A stretch of 37,128 bases of DNA from a virus, in IMG/VR virus record IMGVR_UViG_3300044712_002702, positions 1-37,128 of that record; one strand, 5' to 3'. How positions within the stretch are numbered: position 1 is the first letter of the stretch; each line of letters begins with the position of its first letter. Position numbers and translations under genes: made by a program. Shown here in pieces: positions 3,321-34,696 of this stretch. The notes beneath the pieces were generated by a model. It had not been told where the DNA came from. It did no database searches and was given only the letters and a program-made list of their open reading frames with translations.

Positions 3321-4946
3321 TCACACGAGAAATTCCTGCTGCTCCCCTTTCTTGTCTGTCACCTTCGGCGCCTTCTTGAACGTCGCCCCTACTTGCCGGA
3401 TAGGGGGCATTTCGATCTTCCTTCCGTCCAGAAGTTCAGCCACCGTGTAAAGCTGAACCTTCGGATACTTTTGCCCCCATAATGCTGACTCATAGAAACC
3501 CGCAGTAGCCGCTTCCGTTTTCATCTGTGCAGTGGGCTTTTGCATGGAGATGAGAACACCAATCGCCGCTTTTTCCCGCTCCAGGACGCCTTCCAGATCT
3601 CGGACATGGCCAGAGCCGGTCTTCCCTGCCTTCACCGAAAGGATCACGCTTTCGAAGCTCCCCGGCTTGTCCCCCTGGAAGATAATCCGTCCGTCAATGC
3701 CCTTGTCCGCCCCCTTTTTTTGCTCAACAGGTCGCGCCCCCACGAGGCCAAGCGCCCACCACTGGAATTGATACGGATCAGATGCAGCCAGCCGTTCGGC
3801 GTCAGGCACGCTCACAGGCTCTCCGATGACCTGATAGGTAGCGCTATCACCGAAGGCGTCCTTCAGCCTATGCTTAATGAGATTGATCGCCAGGTGTGTG
3901 ATGTCGATGCCGATCCATGGCCGGCCCAGTTTCTGGGCGGCGGAGATGGTCGTCCCACAGCCGCAGAACGGGTCGAGAACCACGTTTCCCGGGCCGCTGC
4001 TCGCTTCGATGATGCGTTCAAGCAGCGCGAGGGGCTTCTGGGTGGGGTAGCCCAGGCGTTCCTGAGCCTGAGAGTTGATAGGAGGGATGTCTGTCCACAC
4101 GTTACCCACGAGAACGCCGGGCATCTCGTCCAGGTACCGCTTCAGCCGGGGGCGTTTCGAGGTTGAATCGGGGTACCAGATGCGGCCTTCGGCGTCCAGC
4201 CTCGCCATCGTCTCCTTGGAATAGCGCCAGCCGAATGCCGGAGGCTGATGACCTTTCCATTCATAGGTCATGTTCGGTCTGGGTTGAGGACTTGTCATGT
4301 TGTCGAGCTGGTAGAACCGGCCGTCGGCGTCCTGGTAGCGGTACTTGTCCCGGACATACTCATCGGAATGGGGTGCGTGGCAGGGGCGCCACACCAACTC
4401 GTCCGTCTTGCCGTAGTACAGGAGCGTGTCAGTCACTGGGCTCCAACGTTTGGCGTCGCTGTGGGTGTTCGTCCTCTGCCAAGTGATGTCTGAACGGAAA
4501 TTCTCCGGCCCGAATACAGCGTCCATGAGCATCTTCAGGTAATGGCTTGCTGTTGGATCACAATGAAGGTAAATGCTTGCACTCGACCTCATCACTCGCC
4601 TAAGTTCTACCAGGCGTGGGGCCATCATCACGAGGTAGGCCAGCATGTCGCACTCGCCCAGGAAGGTCCTGAATGCCTGAAGGCAATCGGAGACCTTCCC
4701 TCCCGCCGTCACAATCTCTGCAAAGATGGATTCGCTTTCCTGGTTCCATGTCCAGGTGTCTGTGAAGGCATGAATTTGACTTGCGGCTTTGCTTCCGTCT
4801 TTTTCCGCGAATAGGACGTTGTAATTTGTATTGGAGTTGAATGGTGGATCCAGGTAAACGAGGTCAACCGTTTCATCCTTCACGTACCGCCGGAGAATGT
4901 CCAGGTTGTCCCCGTAGTAAAGTAGGTTTTTTGAGCCTTCCGTCAT
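3321..4946 (-). CDS. Beta-class adenine DNA methyltransferase with C-terminal PD-(D/E)xK-like domain
   Basis: Residues 1-360 form an AdoMet-dependent DNA methyltransferase of the N4-cytosine/N6-adenine family. The catalytic motif IV is DPPF at residues 33-36 and the AdoMet-binding motif I is DPFCGCGTT at 325-333, so the order IV-(recognition region)-I is that of the beta class; DPPF favours N6-adenine. Residues of about 390-500 look like an Mrr-type nuclease fold: GADKGIDG (Asp418) followed by ILSVKAG (Lys439). The usual Glu or Gln two residues before the Lys is a Ser here, so cleavage activity is uncertain. It could be a one-polypeptide restriction-modification enzyme, or a methylase with an inactive DNA-binding module. 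It heads the leftward accessory group, downstream of the repressor unit; GAGG lies about 11 bases before ATG. Confidence 0.9.
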
Positions 4947-5466: not shown

Positions 5467-6153
5467 TCACCTCTCCAATTCTCGGGCGTACCAGATGACT
5501 TTTCCGTTGACCAGGACCTTATCCTTTTCGAGCTCGAACGCGGGATACTGCTTATTATCGCTGATGACAAGGAGCTTGTCGGGGAACGCGGGCTGAACGC
5601 GCTTGATCATGATCTCGTCCTCGATTGCGATCGCGTAGATCCCTCCCTGGGGAGCGATGGCATTTCGGCCGTGGTCGACCAGGACGAGATCCCCGGCAAC
5701 GAGTGTCGGCTCCATGCTGTCGCCTTCGACCTTGATCAGAGACATCCTATCCGGCTTCCCCCCTTTTCTTTTTATCCAATCCTTCCGGAACGCCGCCAGA
5801 ACATCAACCGATTCGTCCGGCACAACGCCGCCGCCGGCGCTGATTTTGCCGTTGACCTGGCGGATGAGGACGAAGTCATCGGACGGAAAGTCGGGCTGCA
5901 CCGGACCATACTTGGTCCCGGGTGATTCGACCGACGTTCCTTCCTTCTTCATTGGGCCTTCGCCGGTCAATATCCATTCGGACCTATATGGATAATTAGT
6001 ATCTATCTTTATCGCGACCTCATGGGTAACTTTTATCTTTCCAGCCTCAATATCCTTGACCTTATACCACTTAAATCCCAGAGGTGTGCCGAACTCTTCT
6101 TGAGTTAAATCAAGTGATTCACGAATATACTTTACGCGCGCGCCTGGCTTCAT
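5467..6153 (-). CDS. Phage repressor, HTH plus S24/LexA-like peptidase
   Basis: A 228-aa protein with a Cro/CI-type helix-turn-helix at residues about 5-45 and an S24 autopeptidase domain at about 95-225. The catalytic Ser146 lies in VEGDSMEPT and Lys184 in EIMIKRV. An Ala-Gly pair (A106-G107, in KISAGGG) sits where LexA/CI proteins are cut, so RecA-dependent induction by DNA damage is expected. That differs from the Mu c repressor, which is not of this type. It is transcribed away from the Cro-like gene, with the shared operator region at 6154-6220, and is followed in the same unit by the zinc-ribbon membrane gene. It is the likely master regulator of lysogeny. Confidence 0.93.
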   Translation of the reverse strand: MKPGARVKYIRESLDLTQEEFGTPLGFKWYKVKDIEAGKIKVTHEVAIKIDTNYPYRSEWILTGEGPMKKEGTSVESPGTKYGPVQPDFPSDDFVLIRQVNGKISAGGGVVPDESVDVLAAFRKDWIKRKGGKPDRMSLIKVEGDSMEPTLVAGDLVLVDHGRNAIAPQGGIYAIAIEDEIMIKRVQPAFPDKLLVISDNKQYPAFELEKDKVLVNGKVIWYARELER

Positions 6154-8361: not shown

Positions 8362-8746
8362 CGGCTGGACGGAGAAGATCAAAGAACTGGAGGACGAAGT
8401 TGCCCGCCTCACCGCTGAGCGTATCGCGATTCAGAACAACAGCCGCGCCCTGACCTGTGTCTTTTGCGGCATGGTCTACCCGCCGGGCACGCCGCCCAGC
8501 AATCACGCGGCCCTGGTCGCGCACGTGCAGGAGTGCCCGAAGCACCCGCTACGGCTCTTCAAGAGGCGCGCCGTAGCCGCGGAGAAGTATCTCCACGTAC
8601 TGCGGGACGCCTACGAATTCTTGGGCAAAACGGACGATGAGCTTGTTGCCCAGGAGGAGAGGATGTTCCAGAGCTGCTGCAGGTTGGACCTCATCCCCGT
8701 CATCGACGCTGAACTGGAGTACCGACATTTTTCAGAAGGAAAATGA
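8345..8746 (+). CDS. Zinc-finger-like early protein, 133 aa
   Basis: A 133-aa protein with an N-terminal coiled coil (KIKELEDEVARLTAERIAI), followed by a C2H2-like cluster: CVFCG, then H...H (NHAALVAHV) and a further Cys (QECPKH). Metal binding and possible nucleic-acid binding are therefore likely. GGAAGGAGG five bases before ATG at 8345 fixes the start; the frame continues upstream only as an overlap with the coiled-coil gene. It ends one base before the transposase start, so its translation is probably coupled to TnpA. No named family. Confidence 0.65.
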   Translation: METINNGWTEKIKELEDEVARLTAERIAIQNNSRALTCVFCGMVYPPGTPPSNHAALVAHVQECPKHPLRLFKRRAVAAEKYLHVLRDAYEFLGKTDDELVAQEERMFQSCCRLDLIPVIDAELEYRHFSEGK

Positions 8747-8747
8747 C

Positions 8748-10550
8748 ATGGTCTCGGAAACGATCTTGAATCACGTGGAATCGAATTTGCGGGGCCTCCA
8801 GGGCGGGGAGTATTCCCGGAAGGTGCAGGAACTGGCCGCCCATTACGGAGTTCCCGGGGCGACGGTGAACCGCTGGGCGGTCAAGCGCGGCGTGCGCGTC
8901 CGCAAGGAGCGGGCCACCAAGGGCGCATCGGCCGCCTCCCGGGAGGTCCTCCTGGAGGCCTCGACGCTCCAGCTGGCCTCGAAGCGAACCTCGAAGCAAA
9001 TTTCGCTCCCCGCCTGCGATGCCAAGGAGATCCTCGAGGACTCGGGCAAAGAGACGGGCGTCTCCACCAGCTGGTTTCGCGCCCGCATGCGCCAGGAGCA
9101 GATCTCCGCGAAAGACCTCCTCCGGCCCTCCCCCCATGTCACCCTCCTCTCCGATCATCCGAACCACGTCTGGCAATTCGACGTGACAAACTGCCTCCAC
9201 TATTTCCTGGACGACAAGCGCGGCCTGGGTGAGCGGGACGAGGAGATGACCCTCTACAAAAACAAGCTCGTCAAGACCGTCCGGGCCATCAAAAAAGAGC
9301 TCCTCCGCTTCGCCGTGGTGGACCACTGCAGCGGGGCGTTCTACTTCCGGTACTTCTACTCCACGGGCGAGCGCGCGGCCGATGGTTCGCAGTTTCTCTT
9401 TGAGGCGATGCGGCCGAAAGATGAGCTGATCAAAAAGACCTGGAACGGCCAGTCGGCGACGAAGCTCGGGAAGTTCCGCTTCCACGGCGTGCCCTTCATC
9501 CTCGTATCGGACCGGGGCTCCATCGCCACGGCAAAGGCCAATCAGGCCCTCTTTGACGCCCTCCGGATCGATCTGCAGCCCCACATGCCGGGCAACCCCC
9601 GCGCGAAAGGCGCGATCGAGGGGATGATGCATCACTTGAATCGGTTCGAGGGGCGCTTGAAGCTGCAGCGGCCCGCGGATCTGGACGAGCTCAACCGCTG
9701 GGCGCTCGACTGGTGCATCGCCGCCAACGGCGTCAAGATGATGCGAAACGTCGCCCCCCGCTCCGTCCTGTGGTCCTACATCACGGCGGAGCAGCTCCGG
9801 CTCTGCCCGGAAGAGGAGTACTTCCGCCGCTGCATCAAGGAGCCGACCTTCCAGCGCAAGGCCAACGGCGCCTGCCTGATCAGCGTGGACGGAATGTCCT
9901 ATCAGGTGCCCGACCCGCAGGCGGCCGGGCACTGGGTCGACGTCGTTCTCCATCCCTACGAGCGCCCCTCCCTGGAGGTCCATTTCAACGGCTTCGTCTG
10001 GCTCTGCCCGCCGATCCCGCTGGATCAGTACGGCCGCCTGACCAACGGCGTCCGCTACGGGGAATACAAGGCGCACAAGCACACCGCGACGCAGCAGGCA
10101 AAGGGCGAGATGGAAGCGATCGGCGAGCAGTGGGGCCTGACCTGGAAGGGCACCGGAGACAAGCGCCGGGCCGAGGCCCCGCCGATGGGGCAGGAATCGC
10201 CGCTCACGGTATTCGGCCACCAGGCCGAGAAGGTGGGGAACGTCGAATTCATCGAACGGCGCGGCACGCCGCTCGATATCAAGCCGGCCGCGGATATTCC
10301 AGCGAACGAGGAATTGAGGACCGACGCGGCGGCAGTCTCGCGGGGGATCGCCGAGCGGCGAATCTCCACCGTCGAGTTCCTGAAGCGTCTCAGCGCCGAG
10401 ATCGGCGTCATCGCCCCGGAGATGAACCGGACCCTCCGGGCGCAGTACCCCTCCGGGATTGAGGTAAAAACGGCAGAGGAGGTGATCGCGTCAATACAGG
10501 ACGGAACGTGGGGTGCGGAGGAATGCACATCGGCAGTGGTGGGTGGATAG
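8748..10550 (+). CDS. Mu-type DDE transposase (TnpA, MuA/BcepMu-like)
   Basis: A 600-aa transposase that catalyses strand transfer for integration and replicative transposition of the phage. The N-terminal 115 residues contain HTH segments for end binding. The rve catalytic core follows with the DDE triad at Asp145 (WQFDVTN), Asp255 (LVSDRGS) and Glu291 (AKGAIEGMMHH). The mu-type beta-barrel and C-terminal region (about 400-600), which contacts the ATPase, follow. AGAAGGA lies upstream of ATG at 8748; the longer open frame overlaps the zinc-finger gene. The next gene is an AAA+ ATPase, the classical TnpA/TnpB (MuA/MuB) pair. The order and length match Mu-like phages better than a stand-alone IS21 element. 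Confidence 0.93.
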   Translation: MVSETILNHVESNLRGLQGGEYSRKVQELAAHYGVPGATVNRWAVKRGVRVRKERATKGASAASREVLLEASTLQLASKRTSKQISLPACDAKEILEDSGKETGVSTSWFRARMRQEQISAKDLLRPSPHVTLLSDHPNHVWQFDVTNCLHYFLDDKRGLGERDEEMTLYKNKLVKTVRAIKKELLRFAVVDHCSGAFYFRYFYSTGERAADGSQFLFEAMRPKDELIKKTWNGQSATKLGKFRFHGVPFILVSDRGSIATAKANQALFDALRIDLQPHMPGNPRAKGAIEGMMHHLNRFEGRLKLQRPADLDELNRWALDWCIAANGVKMMRNVAPRSVLWSYITAEQLRLCPEEEYFRRCIKEPTFQRKANGACLISVDGMSYQVPDPQAAGHWVDVVLHPYERPSLEVHFNGFVWLCPPIPLDQYGRLTNGVRYGEYKAHKHTATQQAKGEMEAIGEQWGLTWKGTGDKRRAEAPPMGQESPLTVFGHQAEKVGNVEFIERRGTPLDIKPAADIPANEELRTDAAAVSRGIAERRISTVEFLKRLSAEIGVIAPEMNRTLRAQYPSGIEVKTAEEVIASIQDGTWGAEECTSAVVGG

Positions 10551-10561
10551 AGGAGGTGAAC

Positions 10562-11806
10562 GTGGCAAAGGCAAATGCGGCAACGGCTTACAAGATGGCA
10601 TTCGCACCGATCGTCCTGAAGGAGCTGGCGATTGACTGCGGAATCAGTCAGCAGACGATCGCGGGCGTGCTGGCGGTATCCAGGCCGGCGGTCAACCTGA
10701 TGCTCAACCGGGGCTACCTGCCGGTCGATCATCTCTGCCCGAAGGAGACCGTGGAAGGGATGCTCCGGACGTTCCCCCGATGCATGCGGTGGCTGGCGGA
10801 ACGGAACCTTACCGAGGCGGACGTCTGGCAGCCCCTGGGCAAGGATTTGCGGCACGTCTCGCCGGCGGCGGATAATCAAAAAATGTGGAAGACCCGGCGG
10901 ACGCCGGCAATGGTCCCGGGCAATCCGAACGAACTACTTTTGAACAAGGAGGCGGTGATGGTTAATCAAGAGGCAATGAAGCACTTCAAGATTTTCAGGA
11001 ATCCATTCGTAGACGACATTCAGAAGGACTCGGATATCTTCATGAGCGATGAGCACCGCTACATCGAGGCGGCCATGCTCGACGCAGCCCGCCACGGCGG
11101 ATTCCTCGCGGTGATCGGGGAGGTGGGCTCCGGCAAGAGCGTCATGCGGCGCAAGGTGGTGGAGCAGCTCCGGAAGGACGGCGACGTGATCGTGATCTTC
11201 CCGCAGATGATCGACAAAAACCGGGTGAACGCGGCCAGCATCTGCGACGCGATCGTGATGGACCTCTCCGACGACCGGCCGCGGCTGAAGCTTGAGGACA
11301 AGACCCGGCAGGTCCACAAGCTCCTCCTGGAACGCGCGAAACAGGGCTTCCGCGCGGTCCTGATCATCGAGGAGGCCCACGACCTGCACACCAGCACGCT
11401 CAAGTATCTGAAGCGGTTCTACGAGCTGGAGGACGGATACCGGAAGCTCCTCGGCATCATCCTGGTCGGCCAGGTCGAGCTCAAGGACATTTTCAGCGAG
11501 CAGGCGCACATCGACATGCGCGAGGTGATCCGCCGGATCCAGACGGCGGAGATCAAGGGGCTCAACGGCAACATCCGCGATTACCTGGCGCTGAAGTTCA
11601 AGCGCGTCGGCTGCAAGGTGGACGATATTTTCGCCGCGGACGCGTTCCCGGCCATCTCGGCCCGGCTGAAGCTGATCGACCGGCAGAACCGGAGCATCTC
11701 CCACGCCTACCCGCTCACGGTCAATAACTTCGCGGCCAGAGCGATGAACAAGGCCCACGAGCTGGGAGAATCGAAGGTCACCGAAGCCATCGTAATGGCC
11801 ATCTGA
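10562..11806 (+). CDS. Transposition AAA+ ATPase with N-terminal HTH (TnpB, MuB-like)
   Basis: A 414-aa protein that should bind target DNA and activate TnpA. Residues about 22-50 form a helix-turn-helix (DCGISQQTIAGVLAVSRPAV), as in MuB. From about residue 140 comes an ExeA/TnsC-like AAA+ domain with Walker A GEVGSGKS (186-193) and Walker B VLIIEEA (266-272). AGAGGAGGTGAAC before GTG at 10562 fixes the start. A second strong ribosome site, AAGGAGG at 10946-10952, lies five bases before the in-frame ATG at 10958 (Met133), so an HTH-less 282-aa ATPase may also be made. The stop is followed by GAGGAGG for the next small gene. Confidence 0.9.
   Translation: MAKANAATAYKMAFAPIVLKELAIDCGISQQTIAGVLAVSRPAVNLMLNRGYLPVDHLCPKETVEGMLRTFPRCMRWLAERNLTEADVWQPLGKDLRHVSPAADNQKMWKTRRTPAMVPGNPNELLLNKEAVMVNQEAMKHFKIFRNPFVDDIQKDSDIFMSDEHRYIEAAMLDAARHGGFLAVIGEVGSGKSVMRRKVVEQLRKDGDVIVIFPQMIDKNRVNAASICDAIVMDLSDDRPRLKLEDKTRQVHKLLLERAKQGFRAVLIIEEAHDLHTSTLKYLKRFYELEDGYRKLLGIILVGQVELKDIFSEQAHIDMREVIRRIQTAEIKGLNGNIRDYLALKFKRVGCKVDDIFAADAFPAISARLKLIDRQNRSISHAYPLTVNNFAARAMNKAHELGESKVTEAIVMAI
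10958..11806 (+). CDS. Possible internal-start form of TnpB (ATPase only)
   Basis: An in-frame start within the TnpB gene. AAGGAGG at 10946-10952 and a five-base spacer precede ATG at 10958; the product would be 282 residues beginning just before the conserved HFKIFRNPF segment where ExeA-like ATPases usually begin. It keeps both Walker motifs and loses the HTH. The ribosome site is as good as those of true gene starts in this phage. Production of two isoforms is inference; it has to be measured. Confidence 0.45.
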   Translation: MVNQEAMKHFKIFRNPFVDDIQKDSDIFMSDEHRYIEAAMLDAARHGGFLAVIGEVGSGKSVMRRKVVEQLRKDGDVIVIFPQMIDKNRVNAASICDAIVMDLSDDRPRLKLEDKTRQVHKLLLERAKQGFRAVLIIEEAHDLHTSTLKYLKRFYELEDGYRKLLGIILVGQVELKDIFSEQAHIDMREVIRRIQTAEIKGLNGNIRDYLALKFKRVGCKVDDIFAADAFPAISARLKLIDRQNRSISHAYPLTVNNFAARAMNKAHELGESKVTEAIVMAI

Positions 11807-11984: not shown

Positions 11985-12202
11985 CGAAACGAGAGCGCCG
12001 ATGGGCAAAACCAAAACAAAAAAAGCCGCGTCGAACCGAAACCGAACAGCCCGGACTCTTTGCAGGATCCCCGGGTGAACGGACCGTCGGCAATGGAATC
12101 CACTGCCAAGTGAGGAGGGGTCGGGTCGACACGGCCGTATGCATTGTACAACAGTCCCGCGAGCCCGGCAAGTGCCTCGGCTGCGAACAATTCAAATCAT
12201 AG
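11981..12202 (+). CDS. Small basic Cys-containing protein, 73 aa
   Basis: A 73-aa protein. The first 25 residues are very basic (KRERRWAKPKQKKPRR), so nucleic-acid binding is plausible. Five Cys are absent from this part but the C-terminal half has several (HCQV, AVCIV, GKCLGCEQ), which could chelate a metal ion. AGGAGGTGAGCCG precedes ATG at 11981, inside the end of the 54-aa gene. It is the last gene before Gam. Family unknown; length and composition resemble other small early phage proteins. Confidence 0.55.
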   Translation: MTKRERRWAKPKQKKPRRTETEQPGLFAGSPGERTVGNGIHCQVRRGRVDTAVCIVQQSREPGKCLGCEQFKS

Positions 12203-12227
12203 ACGATCAAGAGAAAGGATTAATAAC

Positions 12228-12764
12228 ATGGCAAATTTAGGGGAGATCGAGCGGTTGACCAAGGAATACGCGGACTGGCGGGAGCAGCTTTCCGAGGCGG
12301 TCCTCGTGGCAGAGCATGAGCTTGCCGCATTGAAGCGGCAGCATGTTGTGACGATCAAGAGAAAGATCGAGGCGGTCGCGGAGCGCCAGGCGAAGTTGAA
12401 GGCAGCGATTGAGGAGAGCCCGGAGCTGTTCCGGAAGCCCCGCACGATGATTATCCACGGAGTGAAGGTAGGATTCATGAAGGAGAAGGGGAAGATCTCC
12501 TGGGCCGATAAAGACCAGGTGGTCAAGCTGATCAAAAAGCACTTCCCGAAGCAGGCCGACGTTCTCATCAAAACCGTCGAGACGCCGGTAAAGAAAGCGC
12601 TGGCGCAGCTCTCCGCGGCGGAACTCAAGCAGATCGGCGTGACGATCGGGGAGACCGGAGACGCGGTGGTCATCCAGAGCACGGACAGCGAGATCGACAA
12701 GCTCGTCAATGCGCTCCTGAAGGAGGACGACGAGGTCGACGCGGAAACTGAGACGGCGGCATAA
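12228..12764 (+). CDS. gam: Mu Gam-like host-nuclease inhibitor
   Basis: A 178-aa protein that matches the Mu Gam family, relatives of Ku: they bind double-strand DNA ends and shield them from RecBCD-type exonucleases. The first 60 residues form the long helix typical of Gam (ERLTKEYADWREQLSEAVLV...), followed by the beta-rich part (MIIHGVKVGFMKEKGKISWAD) and a C-terminal acidic tail. GAGAAAGGA precedes ATG at 12228; the longer frame overlaps the small Cys gene. Position after TnpA/TnpB is that of Mu gam. Length is close to Mu Gam (about 174 residues). Confidence 0.9.
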   Translation: MANLGEIERLTKEYADWREQLSEAVLVAEHELAALKRQHVVTIKRKIEAVAERQAKLKAAIEESPELFRKPRTMIIHGVKVGFMKEKGKISWADKDQVVKLIKKHFPKQADVLIKTVETPVKKALAQLSAAELKQIGVTIGETGDAVVIQSTDSEIDKLVNALLKEDDEVDAETETAA

Positions 12765-26599: not shown

Positions 26600-26830
26600 A
26601 TGTATCGACTGAAAACAGGGCAGGAATCGTTCACGCCGGTCGAGGGACCCCTTGCCGGCCGGGACTTTGTCCCCGGGAAGCTCTACAGGGAAATCCCGCC
26701 GGGAACGGAGGGAAAATTCCAGAAGATCCCGGACGAAGCCCCGCCCCAGGATCCGGAAACGGCACGGCCGGCGAGAAACGCCGGCAAAAAGGGGCAAAAC
26801 GACGCCCCGGAAAACGGTGAGGTGAAATAA
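26600..26830 (+). CDS. Small protein in Mu gp38 position (DUF2635-like), 76 aa
   Basis: A 76-aa protein. Its N-terminal half (ESFTPVEGPLAGRDFVPGKLYREIPP) resembles the short DUF2635 proteins of Mu-like phages, which contain a PxxGxxVP...-type stretch. The C-terminal half is charged, Pro/Lys-rich and probably disordered. AGGGAGGAAAGCG precedes ATG; the stop overlaps the next gene's ATG by one base. In Mu this position is followed by the sheath gene; here a tube protein follows. Confidence 0.6.
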   Translation: MYRLKTGQESFTPVEGPLAGRDFVPGKLYREIPPGTEGKFQKIPDEAPPQDPETARPARNAGKKGQNDAPENGEVK

Positions 26831-28113
26831 TGCGCAGTTACATGGGAACCGACAATTTGATCTGCGTATCGGCCAACGTGCGCGAGGGCGCGATCAATAC
26901 CCCGGCGACGCTCGACACCACACTGCTGTGCGATATCGGCGACGTCATCAACCTGGACCCCCGGCGCGTGCCCAATGAAAACGAGGCCACGGGCAAGGAA
27001 GAGGTCGACCGCATCGATGACTTGGGCTCGCTGTCCAGCTGGTCCCCGAAGTTCGAGAAGGCCCAGCCGCAGCATCTGGCGTTTCTGTGGGGGTACGGCC
27101 TGGGCGTCTCCACGCCTGCGGCCGCCGGCGCCGGCTACAAGCATACCGGGACCCCGATCGACGGCGATCTGGACAGCGCCCGGTCGGACCCGTCGTTCAC
27201 GGCCGCGCAGCGCTATGGCGACACGGTGCTCCGACGCCGGTACTCCTCCCTGTTCGTCGACTCGTTCACGACGAAATTCGAGCGCGACAAATGGGTCTCG
27301 ATCGCCGGTAAGTGCAAGGGCACGGGCAAGGTGGATACGAACGTAACCGAGGAGGTGATCAACGCCTACGCCGACGCGGTGTCGCTGAGCCTGGCCGCCA
27401 ACGCGGTGCAGGGATCGGACGCCGCGACAAGGCTCGCGAACGTCCAGCGGATCAGGGTGGAACTGGCGGATGGCGTGTGGACAGAGGTGGCGTATTCGGC
27501 AGTCTCCGCCGACACGCCCGCGGCGATCACCATCACCTCGGCAGGCGGCGGCCACGTCCTTAAGAATTATCGCGTGCTCTACATCCCGGCCGAATCGGGC
27601 TGGATGACCTTTCCCGCGCGTGTCAACGAAACCCCGCTTCGCGTCTCCGAGATGACGCTCAAGGTTGGCGGCGCCTGGAGCGGATCGGCCTTCGTCGGCG
27701 GCCGAAGCATCCAGAGCGAATTGAAGTCCCTCGAATGGTCGTTCAACAAGAACATGGCCATTCAGTTCGTGCCCGGCGCCGGCGGCGCGTATGCTTCTTC
27801 GGGGCTCCGGGGAGGCCGCGTGCAGGTGATCAAGCTGAACCGGGAGTTCAGGGAGTTTATCCTCCAGCAGCACCTGGTGGCGAACGACACCCTGGGGCTC
27901 TATGTCCTGGCCGAGGGGGCGCTGTATGACGCCACCTACAAATACCAGGCCGAGGCCATATTTCCGAAAGTGGGCGTGCTGTCGGCGCCGATCTCCGTCG
28001 ACGGCAAGCGCCTGGCGGAGGCTGGCGATCTCCAGGTGCTCCAGCACGATACATACGGTTCAGTGATCACGACTGTGCAAAATTTGCAAACGAAGTACGC
28101 CGCGGCGGCGTAA
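26830..28113 (+). CDS. Major tail tube protein, siphovirus type, 427 aa
   Basis: A 427-aa protein. The first third (DNLICVSANVREGAINTP, RVPNENEATGKEEVDR, FTTKFERDKWVSIAGKCKGTG) and the repeated strand patterns (SEMTLKVGGAWSGSAF, SLEWSFNKNMAIQF) fit phage tail tube subunits of non-contractile tails. Its length is large for such a protein, and two related beta domains may be present. There is no sheath gene (Mu L/gp39) in the window. Position before the chaperone pair and tape measure is that of the lambda V gene. The assignment rests on context and fold-like features, not on a catalytic motif. Confidence 0.75.
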   Translation: MRSYMGTDNLICVSANVREGAINTPATLDTTLLCDIGDVINLDPRRVPNENEATGKEEVDRIDDLGSLSSWSPKFEKAQPQHLAFLWGYGLGVSTPAAAGAGYKHTGTPIDGDLDSARSDPSFTAAQRYGDTVLRRRYSSLFVDSFTTKFERDKWVSIAGKCKGTGKVDTNVTEEVINAYADAVSLSLAANAVQGSDAATRLANVQRIRVELADGVWTEVAYSAVSADTPAAITITSAGGGHVLKNYRVLYIPAESGWMTFPARVNETPLRVSEMTLKVGGAWSGSAFVGGRSIQSELKSLEWSFNKNMAIQFVPGAGGAYASSGLRGGRVQVIKLNREFREFILQQHLVANDTLGLYVLAEGALYDATYKYQAEAIFPKVGVLSAPISVDGKRLAEAGDLQVLQHDTYGSVITTVQNLQTKYAAAA

Positions 28114-28230: not shown

Positions 28231-28758
28231 ATGCCCAGAGAATTGAGCAACCAGCCCTGCGAAGTGACGTTTAACGACAAGATATCGGGAGACAAGATCA
28301 CGATCCACTACCGCATGCCTACGACGGAAGAGCGGATCAAGTACGTGAACGGTTTCGTCACAAGACAGGGAAACCAGATCGTCTCCACGATAGGCGAGCT
28401 CCGGATGAAGGCGGGGGCCAAGATCTTCGTCGGATTCAAGAAGGGCTCGTTCAGCGTGCCCGGTAAAGGCTTAATCTCATCGACGCCGGGCGAGGAGAAT
28501 TACGAGCCCGCATGGAAGGCGATCGTGCGGCAGTATGCCCCGGACGTGATCGAGATGCTGGCCCTTCACGCCTTCGAATCATCACTGGTGCGCAACAACG
28601 CTCCGGCGACGGACCAGTTGAATATCCTGCCGCAGACCCTTGACGACTGGGATGATGAAGGAGCTGCCGCACCGGCGCCCGGCCCGGCGCCCGCCGGCGA
28701 AGATTTGGAGACGGCCGCGGAGGGAAAGGCGCCGGCGGACGTTCACCCTTTGTCGTAG
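28231..28758 (+). CDS. Tail assembly chaperone, lambda gpG-like (frame 1)
   Basis: A 175-aa protein with a compact N-terminal domain (LSNQPCEVTFNDKISGDKITIHYRMP) and an Ala/Pro-rich C-terminal part from about residue 145. It lies between tube and tape measure, where siphoviruses encode two chaperones. Near the end, GGGAAAG at 28722-28728 reads Gly165-Lys166 and fits the slippery heptamer X XXY YYZ; it is the same heptamer as in lambda G/GT. Without slipping, the stop is TAG at 28756. With a -1 shift, translation continues into the frame ending at 29030. It coats the tape measure during tail assembly. Confidence 0.8.
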   Translation: MPRELSNQPCEVTFNDKISGDKITIHYRMPTTEERIKYVNGFVTRQGNQIVSTIGELRMKAGAKIFVGFKKGSFSVPGKGLISSTPGEENYEPAWKAIVRQYAPDVIEMLALHAFESSLVRNNAPATDQLNILPQTLDDWDDEGAAAPAPGPAPAGEDLETAAEGKAPADVHPLS

Positions 28759-29030
28759 ACCTGGTGGCGCTCCGCAGCCTGCCGCCGCCCTGCGACGCCA
28801 TCCAGAAGAATAAATGCCGGAAGGAAATCCCCGAAGAGGAGATGCTGGTCTGGACCTGCTCGAAATGCGAGCGCGGCGGAAAGAGGGAGATTGAGCTCGG
28901 AGAGTACACACAAAAGATGTTCCGGTGGATCCGGTTGAGGAACGCCGGATACCCAGTCCGGCCGAACGACCTGACCCCTGAAGAGTGGAATGATCTCGGG
29001 CTGATCGAGGAAATGCTGAGTGGCCAATAA
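28231..29030 (+). CDS. Frameshifted tail chaperone fusion, lambda gpGT-like
   Basis: The -1 product: residues 1-166 of the first chaperone, then about 100 residues read from 28728 to the stop at 29028-29030, giving about 266 aa. The added part has a possible zinc site, PPCDAIQKNKC and WTCSKC, then EYTQKMFRWIRLRNAGY and an acidic C-terminal helix. Its T-like domain should recruit the tail tube while the G-like part binds the tape measure. A GTG at 28764 could start it separately, but no ribosome site of quality is seen there. The end overlaps the tape measure start (29020), so the three are translationally coupled. Confidence 0.8.
28722..28728 (+). other. Programmed -1 frameshift site GGGAAAG
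   Basis: The heptamer G GGA AAG lies in the reading frame of the first chaperone with exactly the phase needed for simultaneous -1 slippage (GGA AAG to GGG AAA). The -1 frame is open from well upstream of the site until TAA at 29028-29030, and the normal frame ends 28 bases downstream. Lambda uses the same heptamer to make gpGT. A low frequency, a few percent, would be expected from lambda. Confidence 0.85.
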
Positions 29031-31725
29031 GAACACGATAGCCGTCGAGCTCACCGTCAACGACAACGGCACCGTGACGATCCGGAAATTCGGCGCCGAG
29101 GCGGAAGGGTCGCTCCAGAAGGTGGAAAAGGCAGCCGGCGGACTCGGCGTGGGGTTCGATAAGACCTGGGCGGGGATCACTGCCGGTGCCGCCGGCGCGA
29201 TCTATGTCTTCGAAAAGATCGTCTCATACATCAAAGCCCCCATCGAAGCGTTCATGACCGCGGAGACGTCGGCCCTGAAACTCGGCATGGCCCTGAAGAA
29301 CCAAGGCGACTATTCCCGTGAGGGGCTGGAGGGCCTGCAGGAGTACGCCGCCCAGCTCCAACAGCTCACAGCCTACGAAGACGACCAGGCAACCGCCGTG
29401 ATGGGGAACCTGAAGTCCTACGGCATGCTGAACGACGAGGTCAAGCGGGCGACGCTCACCGCAATGGATTTCGCATCGGCCAAGGCCAACGAGGGGATGA
29501 CAATCACCTCAGCCTCCGAGCTGATCGGGAAGGCCTATGCCGGCGAGACCGCGATGCTCAGCCGTTACGGGATTATCATCGACGACAACATCCCGAAGGG
29601 CGAAAAGTTCGCCGCGGTCATGGCGCAATTGAACGCCCGTTTCGGCGGGTCGGCCCAGGCCGAGCTCTCCACCTACGCCGGCCAGTGGAAGCAGATCAAG
29701 AACCAGTTGGGGGACGTCCAGGAACTCATCGGCTTTGGGCTGTTGAAGGGGATCCAGGGTCTGACCGTCGGCGCCGGCCTCCTGGCGACGACCTTCCTCA
29801 CTGCCGGAAACGCCATCCTCGGGATCCTCCGGATGCTTGTTTCTCCGGTGATGCTGCTCATCGACGGTCTTGCCCTCCTCGCGGAGAAGGCGGGCATGCC
29901 CGGCGTGGCAGAGGGGATGCGGGAGGTGACCTCCGCGATCGGAAACGCCCAAGGAAGCATCGTCGCGGCCCGCGAAGAGGTGCTCGGCTGGACGAGCAAG
30001 AATTATGACCTCATGACCTCCACGGAGGGCGTTACCGGCGCCCTCGATAAGATGAACATCTCCGGGCAGCGTACCCAGCAGGTCGCCGCCGATAACGCCA
30101 AGATCCTGCTGGCCCTCAGCTCGGTCATGGCGAAGCTCGGCGAGGATCAACTGAAATTTTCCTCTGCCGACTACAGCGAGATTCTGAAAAAGGAGAACGC
30201 CTCACTCGGTGAGATCAAAGCGGGCCTGGAATCGTACCTCGGGACGCTGAAAGCGGTCTACGACGCCCGTATCAAGGGCCAGGATGCCATAGAGGCCGCG
30301 ATGATGAAGGCGAAGCCCGAGGAGCAGATGAAGACCCAGCTCGAAACCCTGAAGACCGAGAAGGCCTATCTGACCGAGCGATTGGGCGGCTGGCAGCTCT
30401 ATTACAACACGCTATTGGCCTATCACGGCAAGGCGGCCGACCTTATGAAACAGAAGACGGAGGAGCTGAAGAAGATCGAGGAGGACCTTGCCGGCGTCCG
30501 GAAGACCGGTGTCGAAACGATGCTCTCCCTCCAGATCAAACTGATGGAGGCCCAGGGCAAAGCGGCAAACGACGAGGAGATCTACCTCCTGAAGAACAAG
30601 GCGGCTGAGGAGCAGTGGGCGCTCGCGATGAGCCAGACCGGCGAGGCGCGGGTAAAGTCCATCCAGCAGTACATCCAGATGGTGGGCCAGTTGACCGGAG
30701 AAGTGGTCCGGTACGGGGAGACTTGGATAAACGCCCAGGGCAACATCGCCGGCGGGAATCAGACCATCATGACCTCCCAGGATGCGATCAGAGTTGCGAT
30801 GGAACGCACCCAGTTCGCCCAACAGGCTTTGATCACAACCGTAGAAGGGATGGCTGCCGCAAAACAGAAGGAAATGGCCGCCATCCAGCAGGCCGACAAC
30901 GCGAACGACGCGGCAATGGCCGACGCAAGGGTTAAGATCGGCGAATACCAGCAGCAGGTCCTCATCCTGGCAGGGATCATCGAGAAGATGGACCGGGATA
31001 TCGCCATCGGTGTCCAGGACAACACAGCCGGCCCGATCGCGCAGATCAGGGCAGCCCTGGACAGCCTATACCCCAACGGTAAGGTCATCAATGTCACGAT
31101 CAACCAGCGGACCGTGAGCAGTGGAGAGGGCGTCGAGCAGAATGGGGCAACGTCCACCCCTGGCCCTGGGACCGGCGGGGGCAACAGCTGGGTTCTGCCC
31201 GACGACAATTGGTTTTTGGGTAATAATAATAACCAGCCCAGCTCGTTTGTGTGGAACAGGGAAACATTGTTTCCCAATAGGGGTGGGGGGGCCGCCCCGG
31301 AACCCGTAACGACCCCATACCCACAGTTATACAATTCCTATCCGGAAGCCGTGGAGTTTCCGGCAGGCAGCAGCGGCCCTTACAGCAATTATTCGTTGCC
31401 CGGTACTGGCTCCTACATGCCGATGGGCCTGGGTGGTTACACCATGCCCGACTGGGAAAGTTATTCGGGGATCCCCCAATATGCGATTGGGACGAAATAC
31501 GTGCCTAAAACGGGGCTTGCCGTGGTCCATCAGGGCGAGGAGATCCGCACCGCGGCCGAGGTACGGCGATCGTCCGACCGGCCGATCGAGCTCCACATCG
31601 CCCCGGGTGCGATCGTCATCCAGGGCGCCAACAAGTCGACCGACCAGCTCGCCCGGGAACTCGTTCCGGCACTGGTACGTCCGCTCACCGAGGAGATGAG
31701 GCGGCAGAATTCATGGGCGGCATGA
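29020..31725 (+). CDS. Tape measure protein
   Basis: A 901-aa protein that sets tail length and is threaded through the tube. The N-terminal half is helical (AETSALKLGMALKNQGDYS, YAAQLQQLTAYEDDQATAV) and has Gly/Ala-rich hydrophobic segments at about 240-300 (GLLKGIQGLTVGAGLLATTF, RMLVSPVMLLIDGLALLAEKAG) that may insert into the host membrane. A long coiled-coil region follows (about 370-640). The C-terminal end is Asn/Gly/Tyr-rich and then has YAIGTKYVPKTGLAVVHQGE, a motif typical of tape-measure C-termini. Start GTG at 29020. With the usual rule of about 0.15 nm per residue the tail would be about 135 nm. Confidence 0.9.
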   Translation: MANKNTIAVELTVNDNGTVTIRKFGAEAEGSLQKVEKAAGGLGVGFDKTWAGITAGAAGAIYVFEKIVSYIKAPIEAFMTAETSALKLGMALKNQGDYSREGLEGLQEYAAQLQQLTAYEDDQATAVMGNLKSYGMLNDEVKRATLTAMDFASAKANEGMTITSASELIGKAYAGETAMLSRYGIIIDDNIPKGEKFAAVMAQLNARFGGSAQAELSTYAGQWKQIKNQLGDVQELIGFGLLKGIQGLTVGAGLLATTFLTAGNAILGILRMLVSPVMLLIDGLALLAEKAGMPGVAEGMREVTSAIGNAQGSIVAAREEVLGWTSKNYDLMTSTEGVTGALDKMNISGQRTQQVAADNAKILLALSSVMAKLGEDQLKFSSADYSEILKKENASLGEIKAGLESYLGTLKAVYDARIKGQDAIEAAMMKAKPEEQMKTQLETLKTEKAYLTERLGGWQLYYNTLLAYHGKAADLMKQKTEELKKIEEDLAGVRKTGVETMLSLQIKLMEAQGKAANDEEIYLLKNKAAEEQWALAMSQTGEARVKSIQQYIQMVGQLTGEVVRYGETWINAQGNIAGGNQTIMTSQDAIRVAMERTQFAQQALITTVEGMAAAKQKEMAAIQQADNANDAAMADARVKIGEYQQQVLILAGIIEKMDRDIAIGVQDNTAGPIAQIRAALDSLYPNGKVINVTINQRTVSSGEGVEQNGATSTPGPGTGGGNSWVLPDDNWFLGNNNNQPSSFVWNRETLFPNRGGGAAPEPVTTPYPQLYNSYPEAVEFPAGSSGPYSNYSLPGTGSYMPMGLGGYTMPDWESYSGIPQYAIGTKYVPKTGLAVVHQGEEIRTAAEVRRSSDRPIELHIAPGAIVIQGANKSTDQLARELVPALVRPLTEEMRRQNSWAA

Positions 31726-31726
31726 T

Positions 31727-34696
31727 ATGATCACAGAAACAGCAGGGCTTGCAGCCAAGACAGCACTTCGCAACGGCGCCGCGCCCGCCTGGATCTTGAA
31801 GATCCCCTTTGCGTCCGGGACAGTCTACCTCTCCGATCGCGTGTTCACCATCACAAACTGGGCCACTCCCGCGATCGTCACCCTTCCCTGGATCGCCTCC
31901 TGGGGGAAAATCGTGGAGAACCTCGCCGGCGTCATGGCCATGCCGATGGTGTCCGGATTTAGCGTCGACGTCATCATCGATCCAAAAGCGGCGACGAGCA
32001 TCCGCACTATGATCCGGAGCGCCCCGGTCGAGAAGCTCCGCTGCACCCTCTACCGGTGGGACGAGGATCTCGATACCGCCACCGACCCGCCCGTGCCCCG
32101 GTGGGTTGGGAATATCGTTGACCACGAGCAGCGTAACGAGCTCCTCTACCACCTCGACCTGGTGGACGAGAGCGTCATCCTGGACAAACCCATCGGCCGC
32201 GTCCTGTCCCTGGCGGATTATCCTCTATGCGATCTGAACCAGGTTGGGCGTCAGCTCCCTATCCTTTACGGATCCGTCGAGGGTTCTCCGGCCATCGGCC
32301 TCGACGTGGGCGCGAAAACGTCATTGCCGTCCGATCTTGCCGGGTATCCGGACGGGATTGCAGGCACTGGAGTAAATCTGCGTATAGGCTCTAACGTTGC
32401 GTATGTGGCGCACGACGCTTTCAGTTATGTAATCAACGGGGTCTTATACTCAAAGGCGGCTAACGCCGTTGGCGTCGCGCCGGGCAATGACGTGCTGCAA
32501 ATATGGGCTTACGGTGCGGTGGCTTTTGATATCGGGAGCGACGGCACGATCGACGCAATCGAGGCGGCCAATCAGGAGACGGCCAATTACGCCACGGAAG
32601 CGGCTGCGATAGCAGCGCTGCCCGCCGTTGCCGCCGGGCATCTGCGCATGGGATATGTCACGGTGCTGGGCTGGGGGTCGGTCTTTACATTGGGGACGAG
32701 CGCTCTGAACCGGCAATATTCCTCGGTGGCATACTATTCAACCGCCCCCGTGACCGCCCCGGTCGACTTTTACGTCTCGAATGAACGTAGCCTGACAAGC
32801 GGATCGGTTCTGGTGATCGAGGAAGAGGAAATTCTTATTGCCACAATAACGGGGAATCACGTCACAGCCTGCACGCGCGGGTATAATTCAACGACTGCTG
32901 TCGCCCACAAGGCGGGCGCACTGGTACAGCAAAAAAAACTGGCGTGCGTCTACATGTTTGCAGATCACCGCGTGCATTCCATCGGAAACATCTATGCAAA
33001 CACGACCGACGGTGTATCCGTCGATATTACCGCCCGTTGCACGAAATATACCGGGCAGCCCGGCTGTGAGCTTGCAGGTTACGAGGGAAAGGCAGTCGTG
33101 ACTGTTCCGTCCATCCTGTCTACGGAAGTATATACCTGCACGGATCTGCCCAAGACCCTTTCTGAGACGGTTCTAAGCGCGACGGGGATATTTGCCACCC
33201 CCGCCGCTGGTTCCTATACTGAGAAGTATTTTCTGATTCATTTCACCGCGAACGTATCGGCTAATCCGACGACCGCGGCAACGGTTGATATGAATGATAC
33301 CGGGTATATCCGGCAGGTAAAATCTGGTGCTGGTGCGCCGTCATACTCTGGTAATTATAGCATTCCTCAGCACCCATCTCCTGGGTCGCCGACGAAGGCG
33401 CTGACGATCACGTGGACGGCCGATTATGCGGTCCCAACCGATGCAGATACATACTGGGAATTCACGCTGTCAGGGGCAGGGTGCGCCAACAAAGTCTGGC
33501 AATTCATTCCTCTCGGACTCATGAATACCCCCGGGGCTTCGCCAATCGTCACGACCTTTACGGGGGACCCTTCGACGCTTGTTTTGTCCTGCACGCATAC
33601 GGGAGGCAGTAGCGCCCGATTCGACCTGAAAATATGGTGTAAATGGGAGTGGGCCGGGACGGGGGCATCAACATTCAAAATCAACGTGGACGGAGACATC
33701 AGTATAGGCACGGTTGACGAGACGGGCTGGCACCCGGCCATAACATCGCCACATAAAGTAGTTGAAGCTGGCGCATGGAACACCGGGAATATTGCCATCA
33801 CATACGGTGGAGGAAATCTGATCGGCGGAACATCGCTGCTGACGATAGACAAGGTGGAAATGTGCCAAGTGAAGGAAACGGCGGCGGAACTGACTGAAGC
33901 CGGAGTGCCCACCAGTATGAATGGCGAGGGCTGGCAGGATGACGGTAGCGGCACAATCACCGGGACGCCGGATGCCCTGATCGAGCGGCCGGACCATATC
34001 TATCCGCACCTGTTCTATACCTACCGGGGCTGGCCCCTTGCGGATTTCATCACCGATGCGGCCTCGGCCTTTGCCGCCGACGGGTACAAATTCAGCCTGC
34101 CGATCCTGGAACGCAAGCGACTCAAGGAAATCTGCGCGGCGCTGGCGTTTCAGTGCCGGTGCTGGTTCCGGTTTTCCGGAGGGAAGGCCCGGCTGACCTA
34201 CCGCCCCGACACCCTGACATCAGCGATGATCGTCCGGGCGGGCATGACGGCCATGAACGCCGATTACACCACAACCAGAACAGTCCGTCCGTCGCCGCTC
34301 GATGAGGTGATCAACGTGATCCACCTCTACTATAAACGCGATTGGACCCTCCCCGCGGGGCGTTCCGCATACCAGGCCGTCTTGCGGGATACGCACGCCG
34401 ATTCGATAGCCGCCTATGGCGAAAAGGAAAAGCCGGACCTCTTCCTCTTCGATTACGTCCGGGATGACGCTATGGCCGCCGACCTTCTGGCCTTTTATCT
34501 GGCGCAGTACCCGTTCCGGACTGATGTGGTTAAACAGGAGGTTTCCATGCGGTGCTCTGCCCTGGAATTCGGCGACGCCGTGACGCTCGCGGAGCTCGAC
34601 AGCCTGGTCGGGCAAGTGATGGAAGTCGGGATCGCGCCAGGGTCCAAAGATACCCTCGACATGATTTCCCTCATCGTGCGTGGGGTCCAGCCATGA
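31727..34696 (+). CDS. Large tail tip/hub protein with mosaic central region, 989 aa
   Basis: A 989-aa tail-tip protein. The N-terminal 200 residues look like a distal tail/hub domain (SDRVFTITNWATPAIVTLPW, GVMAMPMVSGFSVDVIIDPK). The last 270 (about 730-989: HIYPHLFYTYRGWPLADFIT, RLKEICAALAFQCRCWFRFS, LEFGDAVTLAELDSLVGQVM) look like a hub domain of GTA/lambda-J type. Between them lies a Ser/Thr/Gly-rich region of about 520 residues with strand-rich modules, encoded by visibly AT-richer DNA (about 32350-33900), as if exchanged by recombination. It starts one base after the tape measure stop. Probably contacts the receptor and cell surface. Confidence 0.7.
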   Translation: MITETAGLAAKTALRNGAAPAWILKIPFASGTVYLSDRVFTITNWATPAIVTLPWIASWGKIVENLAGVMAMPMVSGFSVDVIIDPKAATSIRTMIRSAPVEKLRCTLYRWDEDLDTATDPPVPRWVGNIVDHEQRNELLYHLDLVDESVILDKPIGRVLSLADYPLCDLNQVGRQLPILYGSVEGSPAIGLDVGAKTSLPSDLAGYPDGIAGTGVNLRIGSNVAYVAHDAFSYVINGVLYSKAANAVGVAPGNDVLQIWAYGAVAFDIGSDGTIDAIEAANQETANYATEAAAIAALPAVAAGHLRMGYVTVLGWGSVFTLGTSALNRQYSSVAYYSTAPVTAPVDFYVSNERSLTSGSVLVIEEEEILIATITGNHVTACTRGYNSTTAVAHKAGALVQQKKLACVYMFADHRVHSIGNIYANTTDGVSVDITARCTKYTGQPGCELAGYEGKAVVTVPSILSTEVYTCTDLPKTLSETVLSATGIFATPAAGSYTEKYFLIHFTANVSANPTTAATVDMNDTGYIRQVKSGAGAPSYSGNYSIPQHPSPGSPTKALTITWTADYAVPTDADTYWEFTLSGAGCANKVWQFIPLGLMNTPGASPIVTTFTGDPSTLVLSCTHTGGSSARFDLKIWCKWEWAGTGASTFKINVDGDISIGTVDETGWHPAITSPHKVVEAGAWNTGNIAITYGGGNLIGGTSLLTIDKVEMCQVKETAAELTEAGVPTSMNGEGWQDDGSGTITGTPDALIERPDHIYPHLFYTYRGWPLADFITDAASAFAADGYKFSLPILERKRLKEICAALAFQCRCWFRFSGGKARLTYRPDTLTSAMIVRAGMTAMNADYTTTRTVRPSPLDEVINVIHLYYKRDWTLPAGRSAYQAVLRDTHADSIAAYGEKEKPDLFLFDYVRDDAMAADLLAFYLAQYPFRTDVVKQEVSMRCSALEFGDAVTLAELDSLVGQVMEVGIAPGSKDTLDMISLIVRGVQP

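Follow-up and report, generated by a model that had tools for sequence, protein, structure and literature searches.

Probable -1 frameshifting at a stop-adjacent CCCTTTG heptamer in the tail chaperone genes of a Mu-like phage

In the window, i.e., the whole stretch of 37,128 nucleotides of viral DNA analysed here, two overlapping reading frames, G and T, precede a long open reading frame, and the question raised by this locus is at which sequence ribosomes would pass from the first frame into the second. The earlier note took G and T for two tail chaperone frames joined by a -1 shift on GGGAAAG, the heptamer used by phage lambda, and tied the tail half of the phage to lambda-type phages. Frameshifting in tail chaperone genes is general to long-tailed phages. 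The coordinates of GGGAAAG and its phase (G GGA AAG), the position of the 0-frame stop, the -1 frame open from 28659 to 29030 (stop codon 29028-29030), and the joined GT product of 266 amino acids were all reproduced by translation of the window (Table 1). A second in-phase heptamer, CCCTTTG, was missed in the earlier note; it is located 24 bases 3' of GGGAAAG, which itself lies 27 nt from the 0-frame stop, and both heptamers are within a single open overlap. The -1 frame of the window is open for 100 nt, so that a downstream slip site is not forced by the window's own sequence. As to chance occurrence, GGGAAAG is present in nine copies in the window as against 8.1 expected, and an in-phase XXXYYYZ heptamer of any type is expected by chance in about 14% of such overlaps.

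Table 1. Features at and around the G/T junction, in window coordinates.
Feature	Position	Strand	Remarks
Upstream tail protein, probably tube, 427 aa	26830..28113	+	phrog_290, conserved neighbour
G, probable tail assembly chaperone (0-frame form), 175 aa	28231..28758	+	ATG with ribosome site AGAAAGGA
GGGAAAG, phase G GGA AAG, possible secondary slip site	28722..28728	+	background frequency for its position
CCCTTTG, phase C CCT TTG, 3 nt before TAG	28746..28752	+	most likely -1 slippery heptamer
T, -1-frame extension after slip	28752..29030	+	four invariant cysteines, lacks a ribosome-site start of its own
0-frame TAG stop of G	28756..28758	+	
RNA hairpin CUGGUGGCG...CGCCAUCCAG	28761..28805	+	likely stimulator, 8 nt past CCCTTTG, spacer UCGUAGAC
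Long ORF, 901 aa, tape measure by place and length	29020..31725	+	no family match

The phage is Mu-like with respect to its head genes (portal, protease I, gpT, Gp36, and Gp37), as had been supposed from the sequence before. Genes for a transposase (phrog_310), an AAA ATPase, and a Gam-like protein at 8637-11806 and 12144-12764 also fit a Mu-like transposable phage, and at the left end the minus strand (3321-4946) encodes a fusion of a DNA methylase (N6_N4_Mtase) with a restriction-endonuclease-like domain (Mrr_cat / NA-iREase1). In the tail region, the protein encoded upstream of G gave a weak match to phrog_290, "minor tail protein" (E 7e-4). The corresponding protein of L010-L014 (match 4001 to about 5515-5680) contains an in-frame insertion of roughly 80 amino acids or more, possibly an extra surface domain. 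Downstream of T, the open reading frames at 29020-31725 (901 aa) and 31727-34696 (989 aa) gave no convincing match in Pfam or PHROG, and the former is presumed by position and length only to be the tape measure gene.

Single-sequence searches with G or T gave no relatives in IMG/VR or among GenBank phages, and relatives were reached only via the neighbouring tail protein (26830-28113) and profiles. Alignments of this neighbour, G, and T brought together about 200 loci, taken from IMG/VR and from MAGs, the latter mostly labelled Deltaproteobacteria, and the G and T profiles yielded a total of 101 non-identical loci (IMG/VR and bacterial MAGs) that differ around the junction. Both parts were found paired in 17 more host-genome loci, one of which (L211) is identical in sequence to L020. 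The frame of T is -1 to that of G throughout, in all of the 101 loci as well as in all 17 of the additional ones, for which the G matches were loose (E<1). Of the 101 loci, 94 offer T no start with an associated ribosome site. The proposal that two tail chaperone frames are joined by a -1 shift is supported by these counts and, modestly, by the resemblance of the G model to known tail assembly chaperones, and so is the expected conservation of the -1 frame, but the choice of the heptamer is probably mistaken. Almost certainly, the phage makes a short and a long form of the tail chaperone via -1 slippage.

The place of the slip site is conserved across the family. In 66 of the 101 loci an in-phase XXXYYYZ heptamer adjoins the stop codon, directly in 51 of them and with 3 nt between in 15, while no other codon position within 150 nt of the stop carries one in more than two loci; heptamers out of phase, counted in a set of 82 loci, gave just a minor echo of A-runs. 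In 11 loci the overlap is 10 nt, consisting of the heptamer and the stop, and in 64 of 101 it is shorter than 37 nt, indicating that in these loci a shift is impossible at the place corresponding to GGGAAAG of the window. At the place where the relatives carry their heptamers, 0-3 nt before the stop, the window has CCCTTTG.

The sequence at this fixed place varies widely. The types of heptamer at the stop include AAAAAAC, CCCTTTG/A, CCCAAAC, GGGAAAG, GGGAAAC, GGGTTTT, and others, and the class has changed at least 31 times on the G+T tree. A perfect heptamer at the stop is missing in about a third of the relatives, many of which keep only C_CCT or GGACTGA. In-phase C_CCT is present within the last four codons of 31 loci, including 15 without a full heptamer. 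The G ends with GGACTGA, observed in L007, L023, L052, L053, and L083, and also in L108, L120, L122, and L163, are accompanied by neither a slippery heptamer nor an obvious T start; this class fits no tandem-slip rule.

On the G+T tree the window belongs to a clade of six (support 97/98). All six members carry CCCTTT[G/A] at the stop-adjacent place, whereas GGGAAAG was found in none of the five other members; the conservation of GGGAAAG that had been looked for among relatives thus turned out to belong to CCCTTT[G/A]. The junction of the nearest relative, L020, reads C CCT TTG TCT TAG, as compared with C CCT TTG TCG TAG in the window, and in L020, L005, and L156 (19-nt overlap) the -1 frame is closed 5' of the CCCTTT heptamer. 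GGGAAAG of the window lies within a linker insertion that the relatives do not have, and no locus other than the window has GGGAAAG in phase at this distance (27 nt) from its stop. The slip site in the earlier note was probably misplaced by 24 bases. As the case against its own proposal, that note had named relatives that lack the heptamer and start the second frame at a strong ribosome site of its own; GGGAAAG is indeed unconserved, but such a start is absent from the second frame in the 94 loci mentioned above.

The RNA following each heptamer was then compared by folding. The hairpin after CCCTTTG has a predicted energy of -22.9 kcal/mol (z -2.74), and 4 of 200 shuffled sequences folded equally well or better; no notable structure was detected 3' of GGGAAAG (z +0.66), and a fold spanning both heptamers was at the level of chance (z 0.00). 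Several clade members have a hairpin at equal spacing from the slip site. Across the family, folding peaks right after the stop-adjacent site, where z is below -2 in 25% of the 101 loci; the share is 4-5% at 60-90 nt on the 5' side and at 120 nt on the 3' side. The mean signal of SD-like sequence is strong 18-25 nt before the stop across the family. An SD-like upstream stimulator was nevertheless set aside as evidence, this signal being mostly explained by acidic linker codons (p = 0.04). The strongest SD-like stretch of the window, GGAGGG at 28719-28724, overlaps GGGAAAG, and some 22 nt separate it from CCCTTTG, more than the usual distance. Transcriptional slippage is unlikely in the window, CCCTTTG containing no long homopolymer run, but the relatives with AAAAAAC could permit it.

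Based on position, phylogeny, and the hairpin, CCCTTTG is favoured, and a programmed -1 frameshift with this heptamer as the main slip site is the probable reading of the locus. The frame relation, the fixed place of the slip site, and the predicted hairpin were observed here; slippage itself, how efficient it would be, and what G and GT would do during tail assembly are inferred, as follows. The majority of ribosomes would translate G and terminate at 28758, while a minority would slip back by a single nucleotide on C CCU UUG, with pairing moved from the codons CCU-UUG to CCC-UUU. The hairpin located 8 nt 3' would aid the slip, and perhaps the adjoining stop codon as well. Slipped ribosomes would continue through T to 29030, leading to the GT fusion with the junction ...EGKAPADVHPL-VVDLVALRS.... 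On the lambda precedent, coating of the tape measure protein may fall to G, and recruitment of the tube protein to the T part. The two heptamers predict different products: the junction would be GK-GAGGRSPFVVDL after a slip on GGGAAAG as against KAPADVHPLVVDLVALR after a slip on CCCTTTG, and the tryptic peptides would be GAGGR and SPFVVDLVALR for the former and APADVHPLVVDLVALR for the latter.

If GGGAAAG were the main slip site, CCCTTTG would be an inherited relic. GGGAAAG is in phase and one of the three most efficient heptamers in E. coli, where heptamers ending in UUG do not rank in the best group (PMC4066793); it is preceded by SD-like GGAG at about 11 nt upstream, and just about 2.6% of overlaps of this kind are expected to contain at random an in-phase heptamer of its class, VVVAAAR, the most slippery one. 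It is, moreover, used in eight other loci, though there it adjoins the stop. In the window, however, it is located in an insertion particular to this genome, is shared with no close relative, is followed by no 3' structure, and stands at a distance from the stop where heptamers are at the family background, while the supposed relic is still intact and followed by a properly spaced hairpin. With this balance, GGGAAAG is unlikely to be the main site. According to the study that gave the efficiency ranking, bacterial insertion sequences very likely make use of AAAAAAC and GGGAAAC, although both are weak in E. coli (PMC4066793). An arrangement of similarly low probability is the use of both sites in tandem, GGGAAAG having been recruited recently in the lineage of the window and adding to the frameshift on CCCTTTG. 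Two GT isoforms of equal length, differing over nine residues, would then be made; both heptamers being in phase inside one open overlap, this would be feasible, and the difference between the isoforms would be confined to a linker that appears to be disordered (pLDDT below 65 past residue 120), but no relative was found with two spaced sites.

Independent initiation of T, at GTG 28764 or ATG 28842 and coupled to the end of G, would dispense with frameshifting altogether. Such an arrangement is suggested by the distant host-genome relatives L212, L216, and L222, in which ATG or GTG of the T frame, with SD-like sequence, overlaps the G end, and by L062, which has ATGA with a strong SD; in these distant relatives T may be initiated separately, and a frameshift and a coupled start may interchange in evolution. 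In the window, GTG 28764 is without SD, and a start at ATG 28842 would cut into the conserved T domain, being located past the first two invariant cysteines. Given also that the large majority of relatives have no start of this kind and that slippery heptamers peak at the stop, separate initiation of T in the window is very improbable, and the frameshift on CCCTTTG is retained as the preferred reading.

The predicted structures were examined for the nature of the two products. G is conserved across the family, and its model is of high confidence for residues 1-120 (pLDDT >90). Against BFVD the model matched proteins named tail assembly chaperone, the best two with probability 0.95-0.99 and E 0.03-0.04, and structural alignment gave Z 4.5 with the HK97 chaperone 2OB9, Z 5.1 with YqbN 3KLU, and Z 6.9 with 3FGX, while a Foldseek search of PDB gave no significant match. 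Residues 1-120 of the model may thus resemble tail assembly chaperones, these Z values being modest and proving little alone. Neither G (searched against Pfam, PHROG, and NCBIfam) nor T (Pfam and PHROG) matched lambda G/T or other TAC families. In the family alignments, T has invariant cysteines at C16, C24, C38, and C41, the pattern of which would be consistent with a metal site. The T model (pLDDT 86) found nothing in a fold search of the viral library (best E 2.7), and its sequence found nothing convincing in PDB.

The locus resembles lambda gpG/gpGT in that two overlapping reading frames precede a presumed tape measure gene, that the -1 shift is near the 3' end of G on an X XXY YYZ heptamer, and that T has no start of its own. 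It differs from lambda in the heptamer, GGGAAAG in lambda and most likely CCCTTTG, 3 nt before the stop, here, in the predicted hairpin stimulator, and in the four invariant cysteines of T; no sequence homology of G or T to lambda is detectable. The eight loci with GGGAAAG beside the stop fall in other clades than that of the window, indicating that this heptamer is no sign of lambda descent, and the lambda kinship proposed for the tail half was thus not borne out, although the failure of the profiles to match leaves room for a remote one. The presumed gene order and the logic of the -1 shift are in common with the TACs of other long-tailed phages (HK97, P2-like phages, and mycobacteriophages), and the weak alignments of the G model with HK97 2OB9 and YqbN 3KLU were noted above. 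Different from these TACs are the lack of a matching TAC family profile for G and T and the position of the slip site, 0-3 nt from the stop; in the SEA-PHAGES set the mean distance between slip site and stop is 26 nt (PMC10885494). Phage Mu is alike in head genes, but its tail chaperone shift is -2 (PMC5009743) instead of -1. In Listeria phage PSA, the shift likewise takes place at a proline codon adjoining the stop codon, but there the major tail protein is affected, by a +1 shift on CCC_UGA, different from the -1 shift in the chaperone here.

The pinning of the slip site at the stop, together with the turnover of the heptamer, suggests that slow termination may be part of the stimulus. That the -1 shift of this family is coupled to the stop codon in this manner is a tentative proposal, which we hold with considerable doubt. 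The turnover spans AAAAAAC, CCCTTTG, CCCAAAC, GGGAAAG/C, single C_CCT tetramers, and the GGACTGA class, and the shift may not require exact pairing of the XXXYYYZ type.

Taken together, this locus is a divergent new addition to the known frameshifts of tail assembly chaperones, with an unusual slip site next to the stop and a high turnover of the heptamer. A familiar heptamer seen in a single genome can mislead as to the site, and comparison of relatives corrects it. The locus belongs to a large tail chaperone family without a matching PHROG or Pfam model, in which a single frameshift persisted through repeated changes of the heptamer, and which provides a natural series for testing which slip sequences function beside a stop codon in non-model bacteria.
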